The notes beneath the pieces were generated by a model. It saw nothing but the letters and a program-made list of their open reading frames with translations. It was not told where the DNA came from and searched no databases. From positions 1-64,000 of the forward strand of contig DAHUZB010000030.1 in the NCBI GenBank assembly GCA_027306785.1: 64,000 nucleotides of DNA. Direction: 5' to 3'. This stretch comes from Vulcanimicrobiota bacterium (GTDB lineage Bacteria > Vulcanimicrobiota > Vulcanimicrobiia > Vulcanimicrobiales > Vulcanimicrobiaceae). Both the position numbers and the translations under genes were made by a program. Below, in pieces: positions 32,520 to 39,761 of the stretch; within the stretch, counting starts at the first letter, position 1; every line of letters starts with the position of its first letter.

Positions 32520-33235
32520 TCTTGGGATTCCTTCATTCGAACTCGGCCGTTGGTGCGTGTATCGCCCTCGCAATCTTGTGCGGTTGCGGGCAATCCACCT
32601 TTGGAAATGCGCAAAACGCGGGGATCGCACAACCCGCGATCGGGCGCGTGCTTAACGCCGTGTTAAGCTGGCCTTCACCGTCGTCGGTCGACGCGCTCAA
32701 AGGCGCGCGCGTCTTCGAGGGCGGTGCGCGCGTCCGCGCACCCGAGCTCGCGATCGCGCGCGCGGTGCTGCGCACGAACGCGCGCATCACGCCGATCGGC
32801 GCGCTCGAGCTCGCATGCGACACCGTGCGCGCCGCGCGCCGCGCCGCGATTCCGCCCGACTTTCTCGGCGCGACGCTGCTGCAGGAATCGGCGTACGATC
32901 CGCGCGCGATCTCGTCGGCGGGCGCGATCGGCATCGCTCAATTCGAACCCGGTACGGCCGAAGAGTACGGCGTGGACCCGTTCGCTCCGGCCGATGCGAT
33001 CGCAGGCGCGGCGCGAGTCCTCGCGTCGTACGTGCGCGCCTATCGCGATCGCTTCGACGACCCGTACGCCGCGGCTTACAACGCCGGGCCCGGTGCCGTC
33101 GCCTACTACGGCGGTATCCCGCCCTATCCCGAGACGCGCGCGTATATCACGCTCATCTACGAGCGGTGGATGCGTATCGGCTCGTACGAACGCACGGGCG
33201 GAGATCGTCGCGGCGCGCAGAAGCGGTCGGGATGA
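32501..33235 (+). CDS. Lytic transglycosylase (SLT domain)
   Basis: A 244-residue exported protein. The N-terminus has a hydrophobic signal with a cysteine cluster (ALAILCGCG) that could be a lipobox. The SLT domain occupies about residues 110-235: the catalytic glutamate in ATLLQESAYDP (ES motif), SSAGAIGIAQFEPGTA, and AAAYNAGPGAVAYYGGIPPYPETRAYI, the full goose-lysozyme/Slt signature. It cleaves peptidoglycan glycan strands non-hydrolytically in the periplasm. The start is uncertain: TTG 32501 gives the signal but overlaps the divergent gene by 19 bases. The stop overlaps the next lipoprotein start (ATGA). Confidence 0.87.
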   Translation: MPPRKPFLGFLHSNSAVGACIALAILCGCGQSTFGNAQNAGIAQPAIGRVLNAVLSWPSPSSVDALKGARVFEGGARVRAPELAIARAVLRTNARITPIGALELACDTVRAARRAAIPPDFLGATLLQESAYDPRAISSAGAIGIAQFEPGTAEEYGVDPFAPADAIAGAARVLASYVRAYRDRFDDPYAAAYNAGPGAVAYYGGIPPYPETRAYITLIYERWMRIGSYERTGGDRRGAQKRSG

Positions 33236-33714
33236 AGATCAACCGCATCGTGCTTGCAGCCGCCGCCCTCGTCGCGCTCGCCGCGTGCGGCAGCGTTACC
33301 GATTCCGTCACGTTCAAGGCGCCGGCGGGTTTCGCGCCCAAGGCCTCGCTCGGGCCCTTCATGCAAGTCTGGACGACCGCCGACAAACACAGCGCGCTCG
33401 TGCTCGTACAAATGCCGACGGCGATGAAGCTCGACGACATGATTCGGAAATCCAACGTCCGGGACGCGCAGGTCCGTGTGAAGCGCAAGATCACGATCTG
33501 CGGATCGCAGCCCGCGATCTACGCCGAGATGACCGGAACGACCGGCATCGCCGATGTCGGAGCGGAGAAAGGCTCCGTGAATCCGCGCGGCGACGTGGAT
33601 TTCTTGGGGACCAACGTGAACGGACATACCTACATGGCGATGTACGTGCGCGAGTTGAAGGGCGCACCCGATCCCGCCGCCCTCGCAGCCATCCACGACA
33701 TCTGCGCGCGATAG
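33232..33714 (+). CDS. Lipoprotein of unknown function
   Basis: A 160-residue lipoprotein: signal MKINRIVLAAAALVALAAC with the lipid cysteine at 19, then a beta-rich domain with two more cysteines (KITICGSQ and IHDICAR). No family recognised; it resembles small lipoproteins that accompany cell-wall hydrolases only by its location. Translation is coupled to the transglycosylase through an ATGA overlap. The gene ends 82 bases before egtD, and a promoter-like sequence lies in that gap. Confidence 0.72.
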   Translation: MKINRIVLAAAALVALAACGSVTDSVTFKAPAGFAPKASLGPFMQVWTTADKHSALVLVQMPTAMKLDDMIRKSNVRDAQVRVKRKITICGSQPAIYAEMTGTTGIADVGAEKGSVNPRGDVDFLGTNVNGHTYMAMYVRELKGAPDPAALAAIHDICAR

Positions 33715-33736: not shown

Positions 33737-33766
33737 ATTGTTACGTTCGCGCGTTCGGGGGTATAA
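33737..33766 (+). promoter_or_regulatory. Candidate sigma-70 promoter of egtD
   Basis: TTGTTA (33737-33742) and TATAAG (33761-33766) are separated by 18 bases, a good sigma-70-type arrangement in a GC-rich gap. A start about 7 bases later would leave a leader of roughly 24 bases carrying the AGGAGG ribosome site (33788-33792) of egtD. Confidence 0.55.
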
Positions 33767-33796
33767 GACGCAGACCGGGTGCCTGCAGGAGGTGTG

Positions 33797-34795
33797 ATGT
33801 TCGAACCGCCCACGACCGTTGAGCCGCGTTTACAGATCGTGGAGCTGCCGCGCACCGGCGCCGAGCATCGCTTTCCCGACGACGTGCGCGCGGGTCTCGC
33901 GTCGCGCCCGAAGACGCTGCCGTCGAAGTATTTCTACGACGATTTGGGATCCGCGCTCTTCGATGCGATCACGCATCTCCCCGAGTATTACCTGACGGAA
34001 GCCGAGACCGAGATCCTACGCGAGTGGGGCTGGGAGATCGTACGGATGCTCGACGGTCCGCTCGAGTTCTTGGAACTCGGGAGCGGGAGCGCGGTGAAGA
34101 CCCGCCTGCTCATCGACGAAGCGCTGCGCGTGCAGCCGACGCTGCGCTACAGTCCGATCGACATCTCGCTCGATGCGCTGCGTTCCTCGTCTAACGCCCT
34201 CATCGAGCGCTTCGGCGGCCTCGGCGTGCGGGCGTACGCGGGCGATTACTTCGCGGTGCTCGCCTCCGATGCGCTACGGTTCGAACATCGCGTGCTCGCG
34301 ATGCTGATGGGCTCCAACATCGGCAACTACTCGCCCGCGGAGGCGCGCGCGCTCATCGCCCTCGTCGGGGCGAAGCTGCGCCCCGGCGACGCGTTGCTCC
34401 TCGGAGCCGACCGCAAGAAGGATCGCGCGACCCTCGAGCTCGCGTACGACGATCCGACCGGCGTCACCGCTTCGTTCGATAAGAATATCCTCGCTCGCAT
34501 CAATCGCGAGCTCGGCGGAACGTTCGATCTACGCGCGTTCGATCACGTGGCGACCTACGATACGGAGCGCGGTTGCGTCGATTCGTTCCTGCGCTCGCGC
34601 TTCGCGCAGCGCGTGCGCGTGGCGGCCCTCGAGCTCGAGCTGTCGTTCGAACCGGGCGAGACGATCCACACCGAGTCGTCGTACAAATTCGACGAACGCG
34701 ATATCGCGCAACTGGCCGCGGCGGGGGGCTTCACGCTCGAGAAGGCGTGGTCCGACGCGCGCAAGCGCTTCGGCGTCTACCTGCTCGTCCGTTAA
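33797..34795 (+). CDS. egtD: L-histidine N-alpha-methyltransferase EgtD
   Basis: A 332-residue SAM-dependent enzyme that trimethylates histidine to hercynine, the first step of ergothioneine synthesis. Landmarks: LPSKYFYDDLGSALFD near the N-terminus (substrate tyrosine), the SAM loop ELGSGSAVKT, GSNIGNY (about residues 172-178, with the substrate asparagine), and ETIHTESSYKF, whose E293 and S295 match the residues that select histidine in mycobacterial EgtD. ATG 33797 is chosen because AGGAGG lies five bases upstream; an in-frame GTG at 33779 precedes that site. No egtB lies in the window. The stop runs four bases into the convergent OpuB-type permease gene. Confidence 0.95.
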   Translation: MFEPPTTVEPRLQIVELPRTGAEHRFPDDVRAGLASRPKTLPSKYFYDDLGSALFDAITHLPEYYLTEAETEILREWGWEIVRMLDGPLEFLELGSGSAVKTRLLIDEALRVQPTLRYSPIDISLDALRSSSNALIERFGGLGVRAYAGDYFAVLASDALRFEHRVLAMLMGSNIGNYSPAEARALIALVGAKLRPGDALLLGADRKKDRATLELAYDDPTGVTASFDKNILARINRELGGTFDLRAFDHVATYDTERGCVDSFLRSRFAQRVRVAALELELSFEPGETIHTESSYKFDERDIAQLAAAGGFTLEKAWSDARKRFGVYLLVR

Positions 34796-35400
34796 CGCAA
34801 CGCGCGTTCGGCGCCGCGCAGCCCGAGATCGACCGCGATCGCGAGCGCGCCCGATGCAACGCTGCCCGCGACGATCTCGTCGCTATGATGCAGCGCGAGT
34901 CCGTTGAAGATCAGGGCGCCGAGGCCGTTCGCTCCCACATACCCCCCGAGCGTCGCAAGCGCGATCATGGCGACCGCCGCGATGCGTAAGCCGCCCACGA
35001 TCACCGGCAGCGCGAGCGGGAGTTCGACGCGGAGCAGCAAGTCGCGCGGCGTCATCCCGATCGCGATCGCGGCCTCGCGTTCGATCGGATCGACCCCGCG
35101 AATCCCCGCGGCGACGTTGCGAACGAGCACGAATTGCGCGTAGGCGACGAGCGCGACGAAGATCGGCAGCGTGCCGAGTCCGAAGAGTTCGACGAGCACG
35201 GCGAGCAACGCGAGGCTCGGGATCGTATAGAGCGCTCCCAGGATGCCGAGGATCAACGTGGAGCCGCGCGCGCTACGCGCCGCGACGACGCCGAGCGGGA
35301 GCGAGATCGCGAACGCGAGCGCGAGCGCCGCGAGCACGAGCTCCAGATGCGCACCGGTGAGCGCGAGCACGTGCGCCCAATGCGTGCCGAGATAGCTCAC
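34792..35400 (-). CDS. OpuB/OsmU-type ABC transporter permease
   Basis: A 202-residue inner-membrane permease with about five to six helices and the MetI-like loop (EAAIAIGMTPRDLLLRVELPLALPVIVGG), typical of glycine betaine/choline/carnitine importers of the OpuB/OsmU class. It is the fourth gene of the operon permease-binding protein-ATPase-permease; GTG 35400 overlaps the ATPase stop. The first permease (37009-37650) is a related but distinct copy, so the channel is probably a heterodimer. It ends four bases inside egtD on the opposite strand. Confidence 0.92.
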   Translation of the reverse strand: MSYLGTHWAHVLALTGAHLELVLAALALAFAISLPLGVVAARSARGSTLILGILGALYTIPSLALLAVLVELFGLGTLPIFVALVAYAQFVLVRNVAAGIRGVDPIEREAAIAIGMTPRDLLLRVELPLALPVIVGGLRIAAVAMIALATLGGYVGANGLGALIFNGLALHHSDEIVAGSVASGALAIAVDLGLRGAERALR

Positions 35401-36137
35401 CGTTCCTCCGCGAAGAGATCGCGCACGAACGGCGTGGCGGGAGCGGAGAGGATCTCATGCGGCGTCGCGCACTGCTCGATCGCGCCGTCACGCAGCACCA
35501 CGATCCGGTCGGCCAGTCGACGCGCCTCGTGCACGTCGTGGGTGACGAAGAGCGTCGTCGTTCCGACGTCGTCGACGATACGCGCGAGTTCGCGCTGCAG
35601 GTCGCGCCGCACGATCGCATCGAGCGCGCCGAAGGGCTCGTCCATCAGCAGGACGCGCGGCTCGGCGGCGAGGGCGCGCGCGACGCCGACGCGCTGCGCC
35701 TCGCCGCCCGAAAGCTCGCGCGGGCGTCGATCGCGATAGCGCGCCGGATCCAGCCTCACGAGCGCGAGCATGTCGTCGACGCGCGCCGCGGTGCGCTCGC
35801 GCTCCCAGCCGAGCAGTTCGGGCACGATGCCGACGTTGCGGGCGACGCTCATGTGCGAGAAGAGGCCTGTCGCCTGGATCGCATAGCCGATCGTTCGCCG
35901 CAGCGCCACCGGATCGAGCGTCGCGATATCGGCGCCGTCGATCGTGATGCGTCCGCCGTCGAGCGGCGTCAGGCGATTGACGGTACGCAGCAGCGTGGTC
36001 TTCCCGCAGCCCGACGCCCCGACGAGCGCGACGAATTCGCCGGGCGCGATCGTGAGGTCGATGCCGCGCAGCGCGTCGCGATCGGCACCGCGGTAGCGCA
36101 CGCGTACCGATTCGAACGCGATCGCGGCGGCGCTCAT
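35397..36137 (-). CDS. OpuB/OsmU-type ABC transporter ATPase
   Basis: A 246-residue nucleotide-binding subunit: Walker A GASGCGKTT (about 39-47), Q-loop YAIQATGLF, signature LSGGEAQR, Walker B VLLMDEPFGALD and H-loop VTHD. The IGYAIQATGLFSHMSVARNVG segment is typical of the ProV/OpuCA group of quaternary-amine importers. It lacks the C-terminal CBS domains that sense ionic strength in OpuA/OpuC-type ATPases, so osmotic gating at the ATPase is unlikely. ATG 36137 and the final GTGA both overlap neighbouring genes. Confidence 0.93.
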   Translation of the reverse strand: MSAAAIAFESVRVRYRGADRDALRGIDLTIAPGEFVALVGASGCGKTTLLRTVNRLTPLDGGRITIDGADIATLDPVALRRTIGYAIQATGLFSHMSVARNVGIVPELLGWERERTAARVDDMLALVRLDPARYRDRRPRELSGGEAQRVGVARALAAEPRVLLMDEPFGALDAIVRRDLQRELARIVDDVGTTTLFVTHDVHEARRLADRIVVLRDGAIEQCATPHEILSAPATPFVRDLFAEER

Positions 36138-37012
36138 CGCGTCGCTTTCAGAAACGCCGATGCCACCTCGCTCGGATCGCGGCCGTCGTCTTCGACCGCA
36201 GCGTTCATCTGCTGCGCGCGCGCGCTCGTGATCGCGGGGGCGATCGCATCGAGCACGCGGGCGATCTTCGGCTCGCGCGCGAGCACCGCGTTGCGCACCA
36301 CCGGCGCAACGTTGTAGGGCGGCCAGAGATGCTTGTCGTCCTCGAGCAGCACCAGATGCGCGTGGGCGATCTCGCCGTCGGTGGTGAAGGCGGTCGCCAC
36401 GTCGGCGCGGCCGTCGAGCAGTGCCTGGTACTTCAGCGCGATGTCGTACGTACGCACGCTCGCGAAGCGAAAACCGCCGTAGCGGCGCTGCAATCCGGGC
36501 AGACCGTCGGGGCGGCTGAGGAACTCGGGGATCGTCGCGAGCCGCAGGTGCGGTGCGGCGACGGAAAGATCGGAGAGCGTGCGCAGGCGGTAGCGCTCGG
36601 CGATCGCGCGGGTGGTGGCGAGGCCCTGCGAATCGTTCATCGGTGACGGCTGCAGCCATGCGAGCGCGTACTCGCGCGCGAAGGCGTCGCGCACGGTACG
36701 GTAGATCTCCGACGGCGACGCGAGCGGCGCGTGATGAAGCACGTCGATGAGCGCGGTACCGGTGTATTCGGGGTAGAGATCGATGCTGCCGCGTCGAAGC
36801 GCCGCGAGCGCGATCTCGGTCGAGCCGAGATTCAGATGCCGCTCGACGCGCATCCCGGCGCCTTCGAGCGCCTGTGCGTAGATCTCCCCGATCACGATCG
36901 ACTCGGTGAAGTTCTTCGAGCCGACGCGGATCGCGGAGGTGCCGCCGGAGCAGCGCGCGAGCGCGGGAGCGGCGGCGAGCAGCGCGAGCGCGCGCGCGCG
37001 GGTGATCGTCAC
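36134..37012 (-). CDS. OpuBC/ProX-like substrate-binding lipoprotein
   Basis: A 292-residue binding protein of the OpuAC-like (glycine betaine/choline/carnitine) family. It has a short signal with a lipobox-like cysteine (APALARC), then IRVGSKNFTESIVIGEIYAQ, GSTEIALAALRRGSIDLYPEYTGTAL, DSQGLATTRAIAERY and YDIALKYQALLDGRADVATAFTTDGEI, all diagnostic. Such proteins bind quaternary amines through aromatic and acidic residues; EgtU-type ergothioneine receptors belong to the same family. GTG 37012 overlaps the stop of the upstream permease. The ligand cannot be assigned by eye, but egtD next door makes hercynine or ergothioneine attractive candidates. Confidence 0.92.
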   Translation of the reverse strand: MTITRARALALLAAAPALARCSGGTSAIRVGSKNFTESIVIGEIYAQALEGAGMRVERHLNLGSTEIALAALRRGSIDLYPEYTGTALIDVLHHAPLASPSEIYRTVRDAFAREYALAWLQPSPMNDSQGLATTRAIAERYRLRTLSDLSVAAPHLRLATIPEFLSRPDGLPGLQRRYGGFRFASVRTYDIALKYQALLDGRADVATAFTTDGEIAHAHLVLLEDDKHLWPPYNVAPVVRNAVLAREPKIARVLDAIAPAITSARAQQMNAAVEDDGRDPSEVASAFLKATR

Positions 37013-37650
37013 GTTACACGTACCTCGAGCGCGCGGACCACGCGCGCAAAGCAGAGTTCCGCCGCGAAGGCCATCGCGGCGACGGTGATGCTCGCGGCGG
37101 CGAGCAGGGCCGGGTCGTTCGTTTGCAGCGCGCGCACGATATCGTCGCCGAGCCCGCCCGCGCCGATGAACGTGGCGAGCGTCGCGCTTGCGATCACCTC
37201 CACGCTCGCCGTGCGAACGCCCGCGAGGGCGACCGGAAGCGCGAGCGGCACCGTCACGCGCGCGAAGCGCTGCCGCGCGTTCATGCCGAGGCCGTCGGCG
37301 GCGTCGAGCACCGCGGCCGGGACGCCGCGGATGCCGAGATCGACGTTGACGACGATCGGGGGAAGCGCAAGCAGCACGAGCGCGACGAGCGCGGGCGCGG
37401 TGCCCACGCCGAGCAGCGGGAGCAGCAAGGTAAGCAGGGCGATGCTCGGAATCGTCCGCCCCACCGCGGCTGCGGCAAGGAGCACGCCGCGCAACCGCGC
37501 GCGCGTGGCCGCCGCGGCGGCGAGCGGCGCGCCGATCGCGATCGCGAGCGCGAGTGCTTGGGCGCAGAGTTCCGCGTGGCGCACCGCGTGCTGGAGAATG
37601 CTCGCCCACATGTTGCGGGAGAGGTTTGGCCATGCACCGCGGAAACTCAT
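37009..37650 (-). CDS. OpuB/OsmU-type ABC transporter permease (first copy)
   Basis: A roughly 213-residue permease with about five helices and a MetI-like coupling loop (DAADGLGMNARQRFARVTVPLALPVALAG). It resembles the 34792-35400 permease in plan but not closely in sequence. It is the first gene of the four-gene importer. ATG 37650 is chosen, which overlaps the divergent ppk start by 19 bases; ATG 37611 would avoid the overlap but shortens the cytoplasmic N-terminus. The two starts leave no ordinary promoter space, so the promoter of each must lie within the other's coding sequence. Confidence 0.88.
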   Translation of the reverse strand: MSFRGAWPNLSRNMWASILQHAVRHAELCAQALALAIAIGAPLAAAAATRARLRGVLLAAAAVGRTIPSIALLTLLLPLLGVGTAPALVALVLLALPPIVVNVDLGIRGVPAAVLDAADGLGMNARQRFARVTVPLALPVALAGVRTASVEVIASATLATFIGAGGLGDDIVRALQTNDPALLAAASITVAAMAFAAELCFARVVRALEVRVT

Positions 37651-39761
37651 CGGTGATGCTCTCGCACGAACGCGCCGGCCGCGCGCCCGCACCCGTCTCG
37701 CTCGACGACTCGTCGCTCTACTTCAGCCGCGAACTTTCGTGGGTGGAGTTCAACGATCGGGTGCTGGAGGAGGCGCTCGACGAGCGCAACCCGCTCTTCG
37801 AACGGCTGAAATTCGTCGCGATCTACGGCACCAATCTCGACGAATTCTTCATGATTCGCGTCGCGGCGATCAAGCAGCAGATCGAGGCGCAGGTGGTGCG
37901 TCGCTCCGAGGACGGCCGTCTGCCGGTCGAGCATCTGGCCGCGATCTCCGAACGTCTGCGCCGCTCGCTCGGACTGCAGATGCGCGTGCTGCGCGACGAT
38001 CTGCTCCCGGCGCTCGAACGGCAGGGCATCCGCATCCGCCGCGTCGCCGATCTCGACGAGGCGACGCAGGCGGCGCTCGAGCGCACCTTCGACGATCGTC
38101 TCTTTCCCGTGCTCACGCCGCTCGCGGTCGACAGCGGGCATCCGTTTCCGTACATCTCGAACCTCTCGCTCTCGCTCGCCGTCGAACTCGAAGAGCCGAC
38201 CGCCGAAGGCGTGGAGCTCCACTTCGCGCGCGTGAAGATTCCGCCGATCCTGCCCCGCTTCGTGCCGATCGGCGATGCGCGGGACGGCGAGCGCGAGTTC
38301 GTGCTGCTCGAAGATCTGATCGCGCACCATCTCGACGGGCTCTTTCCCGGCATGAAGGTGCGCGAAGCCTATCTCTTCCGCGTCACGCGCGACGCCGACC
38401 TCGATCTGCAAGAAGACGAAGCCGACGATCTGCTGCGCGCGATCGAATCCGAACTGCAGCGCCGACGCTTCGGCGAACCGGTGCGTTTGGAGATCGAACG
38501 CGGCATGCCCGAATACATGCGCGATTTTCTGTTGCAGGCGCTCGACCTCACCGAAGTGGACTGCTACGAAGTCGACGGTATCATGGCGCTCTCCGATCTC
38601 TGGCAGATCATCGGTCTGCCCGATTACGAGACGCTGCGCGACGCGCCGTTCATGCCGACGATTCCGCGTAAGCTGCTCGGCAAGAGCGATCTCTTCGCGG
38701 AGATTCGCGAGGGCGATCTGCTGCTGCACCATCCGTACGAATCGTTCGATCCGGTCGTGCAATTCGTCGCACAGGCCGCCGAAGATCCCGACGTGCTCGC
38801 GATCAAAGCGACGCTCTACCGCACCTCCGGCAAGAACTCGCCGATCGTGCGCGCGCTGCTGCAGGCGGCCGAGAACGAGAAGCAGGTCGCGGTGGTCATC
38901 GAGCTCAAGGCGCGTTTCGACGAAGAGAACAACATCGAATGGGCGCGCCGCCTGGAGCGCGCGGGCGTGCACGTGGTCTACGGCTTCCCGGGGCAGAAGG
39001 TGCACGCTAAAACGATGATGGTGGTGCGTCGCGAAGAGGACGGCATTCGCCGGTACATGCACTTCGGAACCGGCAACTACAACGAGAAGACGGCGCGGCT
39101 CTACACGGATTTAAGCCTCTTCACGTGCCGTCCCGAACTCGGCAACGACGTCACGCAGCTCTTCAACGCGCTCACCGGCTTCGCCAAGATCACCGACTAC
39201 GAGGATCTGCTCGTGGCGCCGGTTACGCTGCGCCGCGAGACGCTCGCGCTCATCGAGCGCGAGACCGAGCACGCCCGCGCGGGGCGCCCGGCGGGCATTC
39301 GCGCCAAGCTCAACGCGCTGACCGACGGAGAGATCGTGCGCGCGCTCTATCGTGCCTCGCAGGCGGGCGTCCCGATCGACCTCCTGGTGCGCGGGATGTG
39401 CGTGCTGCGCCCGGGGCTGCCGGGCGTGAGCGAGAGCATCCGCGTGCGCAGCATCGTCGGGCGCTTCCTGGAGCACTCGCGCATCTACGTCTTCGAGAAC
39501 GGCGGCGACCGCGAGCTCTACATCTCGAGCGCCGACTGGATGGGACGCAACCTGGATCGCCGGGTCGAGCTCGGGATCCCGGTGCTCGACCCCGTCCTCG
39601 CCGAGAGCGTGAACGGGCAGATCCTCTCGGTGCTGATGGCCGACAACGTGAAGACCCGCGAACTGCTCCCCGACGGGTCCTACAAACGTCGCGGGCGCGG
39701 CCCCGACGAGATGCCGGTCGATGCCCAGCGCATCTTCCTGACCCAGGCGCAGGCGGTCTGA
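37632..39761 (+). CDS. ppk: Polyphosphate kinase 1
   Basis: A 709-residue PPK1, which reversibly moves the gamma phosphate of ATP to polyphosphate chains. Landmarks are FSRELSWVEFNDRVLEEA (N-terminal domain), IYGTNLDEFFMIRVA, KATLYRTSGKNSPIVRAL, HAKTMMVVRRE, the autophosphorylated histidine in YMHFGTGNYNEKTARLY (H477), and the second conserved histidine in FLEHSRIYVF (H615). The length and all five family blocks are intact. ATG 37632 follows GGGAGAGG by eight bases. Polyphosphate is often linked to stress survival; nothing in the neighbourhood narrows that here. Confidence 0.96.
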   Translation: MHRGNSSVMLSHERAGRAPAPVSLDDSSLYFSRELSWVEFNDRVLEEALDERNPLFERLKFVAIYGTNLDEFFMIRVAAIKQQIEAQVVRRSEDGRLPVEHLAAISERLRRSLGLQMRVLRDDLLPALERQGIRIRRVADLDEATQAALERTFDDRLFPVLTPLAVDSGHPFPYISNLSLSLAVELEEPTAEGVELHFARVKIPPILPRFVPIGDARDGEREFVLLEDLIAHHLDGLFPGMKVREAYLFRVTRDADLDLQEDEADDLLRAIESELQRRRFGEPVRLEIERGMPEYMRDFLLQALDLTEVDCYEVDGIMALSDLWQIIGLPDYETLRDAPFMPTIPRKLLGKSDLFAEIREGDLLLHHPYESFDPVVQFVAQAAEDPDVLAIKATLYRTSGKNSPIVRALLQAAENEKQVAVVIELKARFDEENNIEWARRLERAGVHVVYGFPGQKVHAKTMMVVRREEDGIRRYMHFGTGNYNEKTARLYTDLSLFTCRPELGNDVTQLFNALTGFAKITDYEDLLVAPVTLRRETLALIERETEHARAGRPAGIRAKLNALTDGEIVRALYRASQAGVPIDLLVRGMCVLRPGLPGVSESIRVRSIVGRFLEHSRIYVFENGGDRELYISSADWMGRNLDRRVELGIPVLDPVLAESVNGQILSVLMADNVKTRELLPDGSYKRRGRGPDEMPVDAQRIFLTQAQAV

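Follow-up and report, generated by a model that had tools for sequence, protein, structure and literature searches.

What does an ABC importer of the osmoprotectant type carry when its genes run head-on into a gene for hercynine synthesis? The question arises in a 64,000-nucleotide stretch of a Vulcanimicrobiota genome (the window), where egtD converges on an OpuB-type importer. An earlier note, made from the sequence alone, proposed that the system imports hercynine, ergothioneine or their precursor. The best-supported reading of our analysis is that the importer has been coupled by evolution to hercynine synthesis. Its ligand is probably ergothioneine or a closely related betaine made from hercynine, for instance selenoneine, and its role would be to salvage the product class of the EgtD pathway. 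Four lines of evidence argue for import of the ergothioneine type: linkage to egtD across the class, a constant binding pocket, relatives within operons for ergothioneine degradation (Ert), and retention of the four residues (Lys, Thr, Arg, Glu) through which pneumococcal EgtUC contacts ergothioneine.

Gene layout of the locus

The egtD gene (33779..34795, + strand) encodes L-histidine N-alpha-trimethyltransferase, the enzyme that converts histidine to hercynine. Its product matches PF10017 at 326 bits and passes the curated cut-off of the TIGR03438 equivalog model (312.7 against 290.9 bits). It aligns over nearly its full length to structures of M. smegmatis EgtD and keeps all of Y56, N166, E282 and S284 (numbering and roles as we take them to be in that enzyme). 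Upstream of egtD, a small lipoprotein gene (33183-33714, + strand) has no Pfam match and is conserved in about 10 relatives.

The importer consists of four separate genes on the - strand (34792-37650), with mutual overlaps of 4 to 19 bases. These are permease 1 (34792..35400), the ATPase (35397..36152), a substrate-binding lipoprotein of the OpuAC family with a Gln-type pocket (36134..37012; PF04069, 218.9 bits) and permease 2 (37009..37650). Both permeases were identified as open reading frames with a BPD_transp_1 profile match. The reading frame of permease 2 opens at 37692, and the start that gives 37650 is its second Met. All five genes are thus present as the earlier note described them, including the 4-bp overlap between egtD and the importer: two convergent stop codons share the motif TTAA at 34792-34795, with the egtD TAA at 34793-34795 and the permease 1 stop at 34792-34794 on the opposite strand.

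The same architecture of four genes and the OpuAC fold are found in OpuB/OpuC, AfProX and OsmF/YehZ. The main alternative is a general importer of osmoprotectants (glycine betaine, choline, carnitine) that sits beside egtD for historical reasons, a reading that we consider unlikely. It gains from the fact that the binding protein is the only OpuAC-family protein in the whole genome (3.1 Mb, estimated 96% complete); the cell may have no other betaine importer of such a type. The ATPase speaks against it. Osmosensing importers of the OpuA/OpuC type carry CBS domains on the ATPase, whereas a profile search of the window's ATPase (251 aa) found no CBS match and the ABC domain alone, in agreement with the earlier note. 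The best NCBIfam match of the ATPase is the ProV subfamily, with a score under the cut-off of that model.

Linkage across the class

The earlier note had made its reading depend on conservation of the pair in related genomes. Our census covered 96 genomes of the window's class, each at least 80% complete, and the families PF10017 and PF04069. Both families are present in 92 genomes, and in 79 of these egtD and the importer are convergent and at most 8 kb apart, which rules out chance adjacency. The spacing is below 1.7 kb in 34 of the 79, leaving room for a permease and the ATPase only. The remaining 13 genomes comprise seven of genus g19, one in which about 70 kb separates the two genes, and five that have them on different contigs. 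Among the matches listed, relatives with names are usually filed under Candidatus Eremiobacterota.

Conserved order can also reflect slow rearrangement of a larger region. Family f1, to which the window belongs, has a longer common block of lytic transglycosylase, glycosyltransferase and polyphosphate kinase genes, and this block could hold the pair together passively. In family f2, the polyphosphate kinase gene (ppk) is found beyond egtD; in family f3, ppk is absent and no other neighbour is in common with f1. The egtD gene and the importer are still convergent in both. These changing neighbours act as an internal control for the linkage, and since f1 and f3 have no other neighbour in common, neutral synteny is ruled out as its sole cause. 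An osmoprotectant importer left beside egtD by history does not account for linkage that persists where all other neighbours have changed.

Simple co-occurrence of the two families is a weaker argument than it appears. Genus g19 keeps egtD without a linked importer in seven genomes, a point against import of the ergothioneine type, and in the g19 genomes scored for both families the binding protein is a different one, with a Tyr cage (four of the seven were examined). One further genome (G024) has no importer and no full-length EgtD, but it lacks urocanase too and so is a generally reduced genome. Both cases weaken the apparent correlation.

Binding pocket and its relatives

An AlphaFold2 model of the binding protein (pLDDT 96) has as its best PDB folds OpuBC-type sensor binding proteins and H. 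pylori EgtU (TM-score 0.91, Z 35.3 for the latter). Comparison with F-III structures gives Z of 30-35, which, with the PF04069 match, places the protein in the OpuAC family, subcluster F-III. Apo structures of the EgtU type and of the OpuBC type fit the model to much the same degree, and the fold therefore cannot discriminate between ligands. Fold and family are common to OpuBC, OpuCC and ProX, as the osmoprotectant reading would have it, and they are also those of EgtU from S. pneumoniae and EgtUV from H. pylori. Its gene organisation differs from that of EgtU: each permease and the binding protein has a gene of its own, whereas EgtU has its binding protein fused to the permease, and, unlike EgtU, the importer is linked to a biosynthesis gene.

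To compare pockets, we aligned 39 egtD-linked binding proteins and numbered the ligand residues on S. pneumoniae EgtUC through PDB alignments. The full EgtUC sequence was obtained with a hybrid query made of the window protein and a stretch of EgtUC, and nothing else from that query was used. Full aromatic cages of the ProX/OpuBC type have Tyr at position 341; here the residue is Gln in 39/39 aligned proteins. The same holds for 76/76 linked loci (two genomes counted twice), where Gln is constant together with the Lys, Thr, Arg, Glu (the E375 equivalent) and three cage aromatics. In the PDB relatives with readable residues this site is occupied by Tyr, as in EgtUC and the sensor proteins, or by Trp, as in OsmF. 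The earlier note had held that a close match to a glycine betaine/choline cage would speak against its proposal; the pocket is not a normal cage of that kind. The carboxylate triad and the three cage aromatics do occur in glycine betaine binders, and the Lys/Thr/Arg set is the carboxylate-binding one described for AfProX. The invariant Gln in place of the fourth cage Tyr is harder to reconcile with a general osmoprotectant importer, since Tyr appears only in a genus whose importer is not beside egtD.

Five loci lie clearly away from egtD, and none has the Gln: four in genus g19 (L238-L241) have Tyr, along with a different gene order, and one (G121, L242) has Glu. These are few independent events, perhaps two, both in the same direction. 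Four further loci keep Gln, with a contig layout that leaves their linkage to egtD unjudgeable.

Published residue roles allow a direct comparison with EgtU (PMC9732360). In S. pneumoniae EgtUC, K242, T296 and R379 bind the ergothioneine carboxylate and E375 contacts the imidazole (PMC9732360). All four are kept in 39/39 linked proteins, as are D381 and Y443, and T275 is kept in 34/39. Besides the Gln at Y341, the changes are G244 to Phe, F293 to Tyr and Y419 to Phe in all 39, N339 to Asp in 36 and Y337 to Met in 33. The EgtU determinants Gly244 and the F293/Y337 switch are thus absent from the window's clade. Together with the absence of the fusion, this rules out plain membership of EgtU and is evidence against ergothioneine as the ligand. 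The EgtU paper also describes the H. pylori transporter, which lies outside the pneumococcal subcluster and still contributes to ergothioneine uptake at lower affinity. Absence of the EgtU determinants therefore does not exclude ergothioneine. The earlier proposal is in this respect partly upheld: linkage, pocket and relatives favour it, but the importer is not an EgtU by published determinants.

The relatives were sampled by scanning species genomes for Gln-type proteins. Among the matches listed, the closest outside the phylum come from Aeribacillus, Brevibacillus, Cohnella, Paenibacillus and some cyanobacteria (50-52% identical), with Lederbergia at 46%. In Bacillales, importers with the same Gln pocket, whose binding proteins are 46-52% identical to that of the window, lie in operons of the Ert route, the known pathway of ergothioneine breakdown. 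Their setting is catabolic: the neighbours are urocanase-, thiohydantoin-desulfurase- and histidine-ammonia-lyase-like genes, a hydantoinase and a carbamoylase. The Lederbergia operon, the only one scanned with NCBIfam, has thiourocanate hydratase (1013 bits, cut-off 930), thiohydantoin desulfurase (608, cut-off 440) and ErtE (581, cut-off 520), and its hydantoinase matches ErtD best, under the cut-off. Lyases of the Bacillales operons lack the Ala-Ser-Gly (MIO) cofactor motif; ergothionase is reported to be without the MIO cofactor (PMC13405746). Cohnella pontilimi has a more distant Gln-type importer inside another Ert operon. This setting of the relatives speaks against a general osmoprotectant importer.

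These relatives have limits as a guide. In a tree of 108 proteins, the Ert group joins other Firmicutes proteins and does not by itself form the sister group of the window's clade, so the ligand is being carried over across the subfamily. Gln-type proteins of the cyanobacteria, Chloroflexi and anaerobic Firmicutes tested had no thiohydantoin desulfurase above cut-off with them, which means that the ligand cannot be read from the Gln alone. Near one desulfurase locus the binding protein has a Tyr cage, which also counts against import of the ergothioneine type. Gln-type importers at four loci of anaerobic Firmicutes and spirochaetes (L195, L201, L202, L206) adjoin an O-acetylhomoserine sulfhydrylase gene, and two of these also adjoin a 4Fe-4S protein gene; sulphur salvage from ergothioneine is possible there.

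In a second alternative, the importer brings in hercynine or histidine and so supplies the pathway with the EgtD product or an earlier compound. We think it improbable. The importer does adjoin egtD and not egtB, and Asp and Gln in place of the EgtUC cage Asn and Tyr could hydrogen-bond a less methylated amine. Against this, the change from Tyr to Gln does not by itself indicate a ligand without a trimethylammonium group, and the Ert operons of the relatives include thiohydantoin desulfurase, an enzyme whose substrates are sulphur-containing intermediates.

In the window's class, thiourocanate hydratase is above cut-off in 0/72 genomes and the matches fit ordinary urocanase. Uptake that serves breakdown along the Ert route is therefore unlikely there. 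We infer that in this class the importer serves salvage of an ergothioneine-like ligand. More tentatively, the Gln-pocket proteins may form a distinct class of ergothioneine importers, apart from EgtU and spread over several phyla, which one class of bacteria joined to EgtD as a module that makes and salvages ergothioneine or selenoneine.

Fate of hercynine in the same genome

The earlier note saw no egtB and suggested that EgtD might stop at hercynine or work with distant genes. A search of the whole genome bears out neither the absence of egtB nor an end at hercynine: it finds two proteins with the DinB_2 and FGE-sulfatase architecture of the EgtB family outside the window. Neither reaches the EgtB equivalog model TIGR03440 (306 and 178 bits, cut-off 360). 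One is SenA (483 bits, cut-off 420). It is accompanied by SelD (367 bits, cut-off 125) and, beside senA-selD, by a match to TIGR04348 (358.6 bits, cut-off 300), which we take to be the SenB model. In this cluster (L005 9160-11563 and L216; G000 contig C13 57.2-60.4 kb), senA is followed by selD and senB is divergent. As judged from sequence, senB, senA and selD form with EgtD a complete candidate set for selenoneine in an uncultured phylum.

The second protein (L003 1495-2790, G000 contig C23) is EgtB/OvoA-like and below all curated cut-offs. Most relatives have similar matches. In one of them (G020, L124) a 60% identical homologue lies divergent from egtD at a distance of about 140 bp, which supports a role after EgtD. 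With the SenA/SenB/SelD set and this protein, an EgtD without any downstream enzyme is ruled out.

The complete sen set raises the further alternative that the importer is specific for selenoneine, which we consider very improbable: SenA is above cut-off in only 15/60 relatives whereas almost the whole class has the importer, and the Ert operons indicate a sulphur compound.

EgtD converts histidine to hercynine. Under the preferred reading, the convergent ABC importer would bring ergothioneine, or a closely related betaine made from hercynine, into the same cell, which would both make and salvage antioxidants of the ergothioneine class. Hercynine is probably converted further by the genes elsewhere in the genome: the SenA/SenB/SelD set should yield selenoneine, and the second EgtB/OvoA-type protein may yield ergothioneine. 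Bacterial uptake of ergothioneine is known chiefly from EgtU-type importers in non-producers, and none of the papers searched names the phylum together with ergothioneine. If the reading is true, exchange of ergothioneine and selenoneine would reach into uncultured environmental bacteria, through a lineage that is probably a producer and has an importer of its own for the purpose. There would also be a second pocket chemistry, with one residue as the mark in the sequence by which importers that now carry an osmoprotectant annotation could be recognised.

In four genomes, a gene for a peptidase C26 of the gamma-glutamyl hydrolase type adjoins egtD (L099 7682-8434 and its equivalents in L105, L119 and L123). 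The peptidase is a possible substitute for EgtC.
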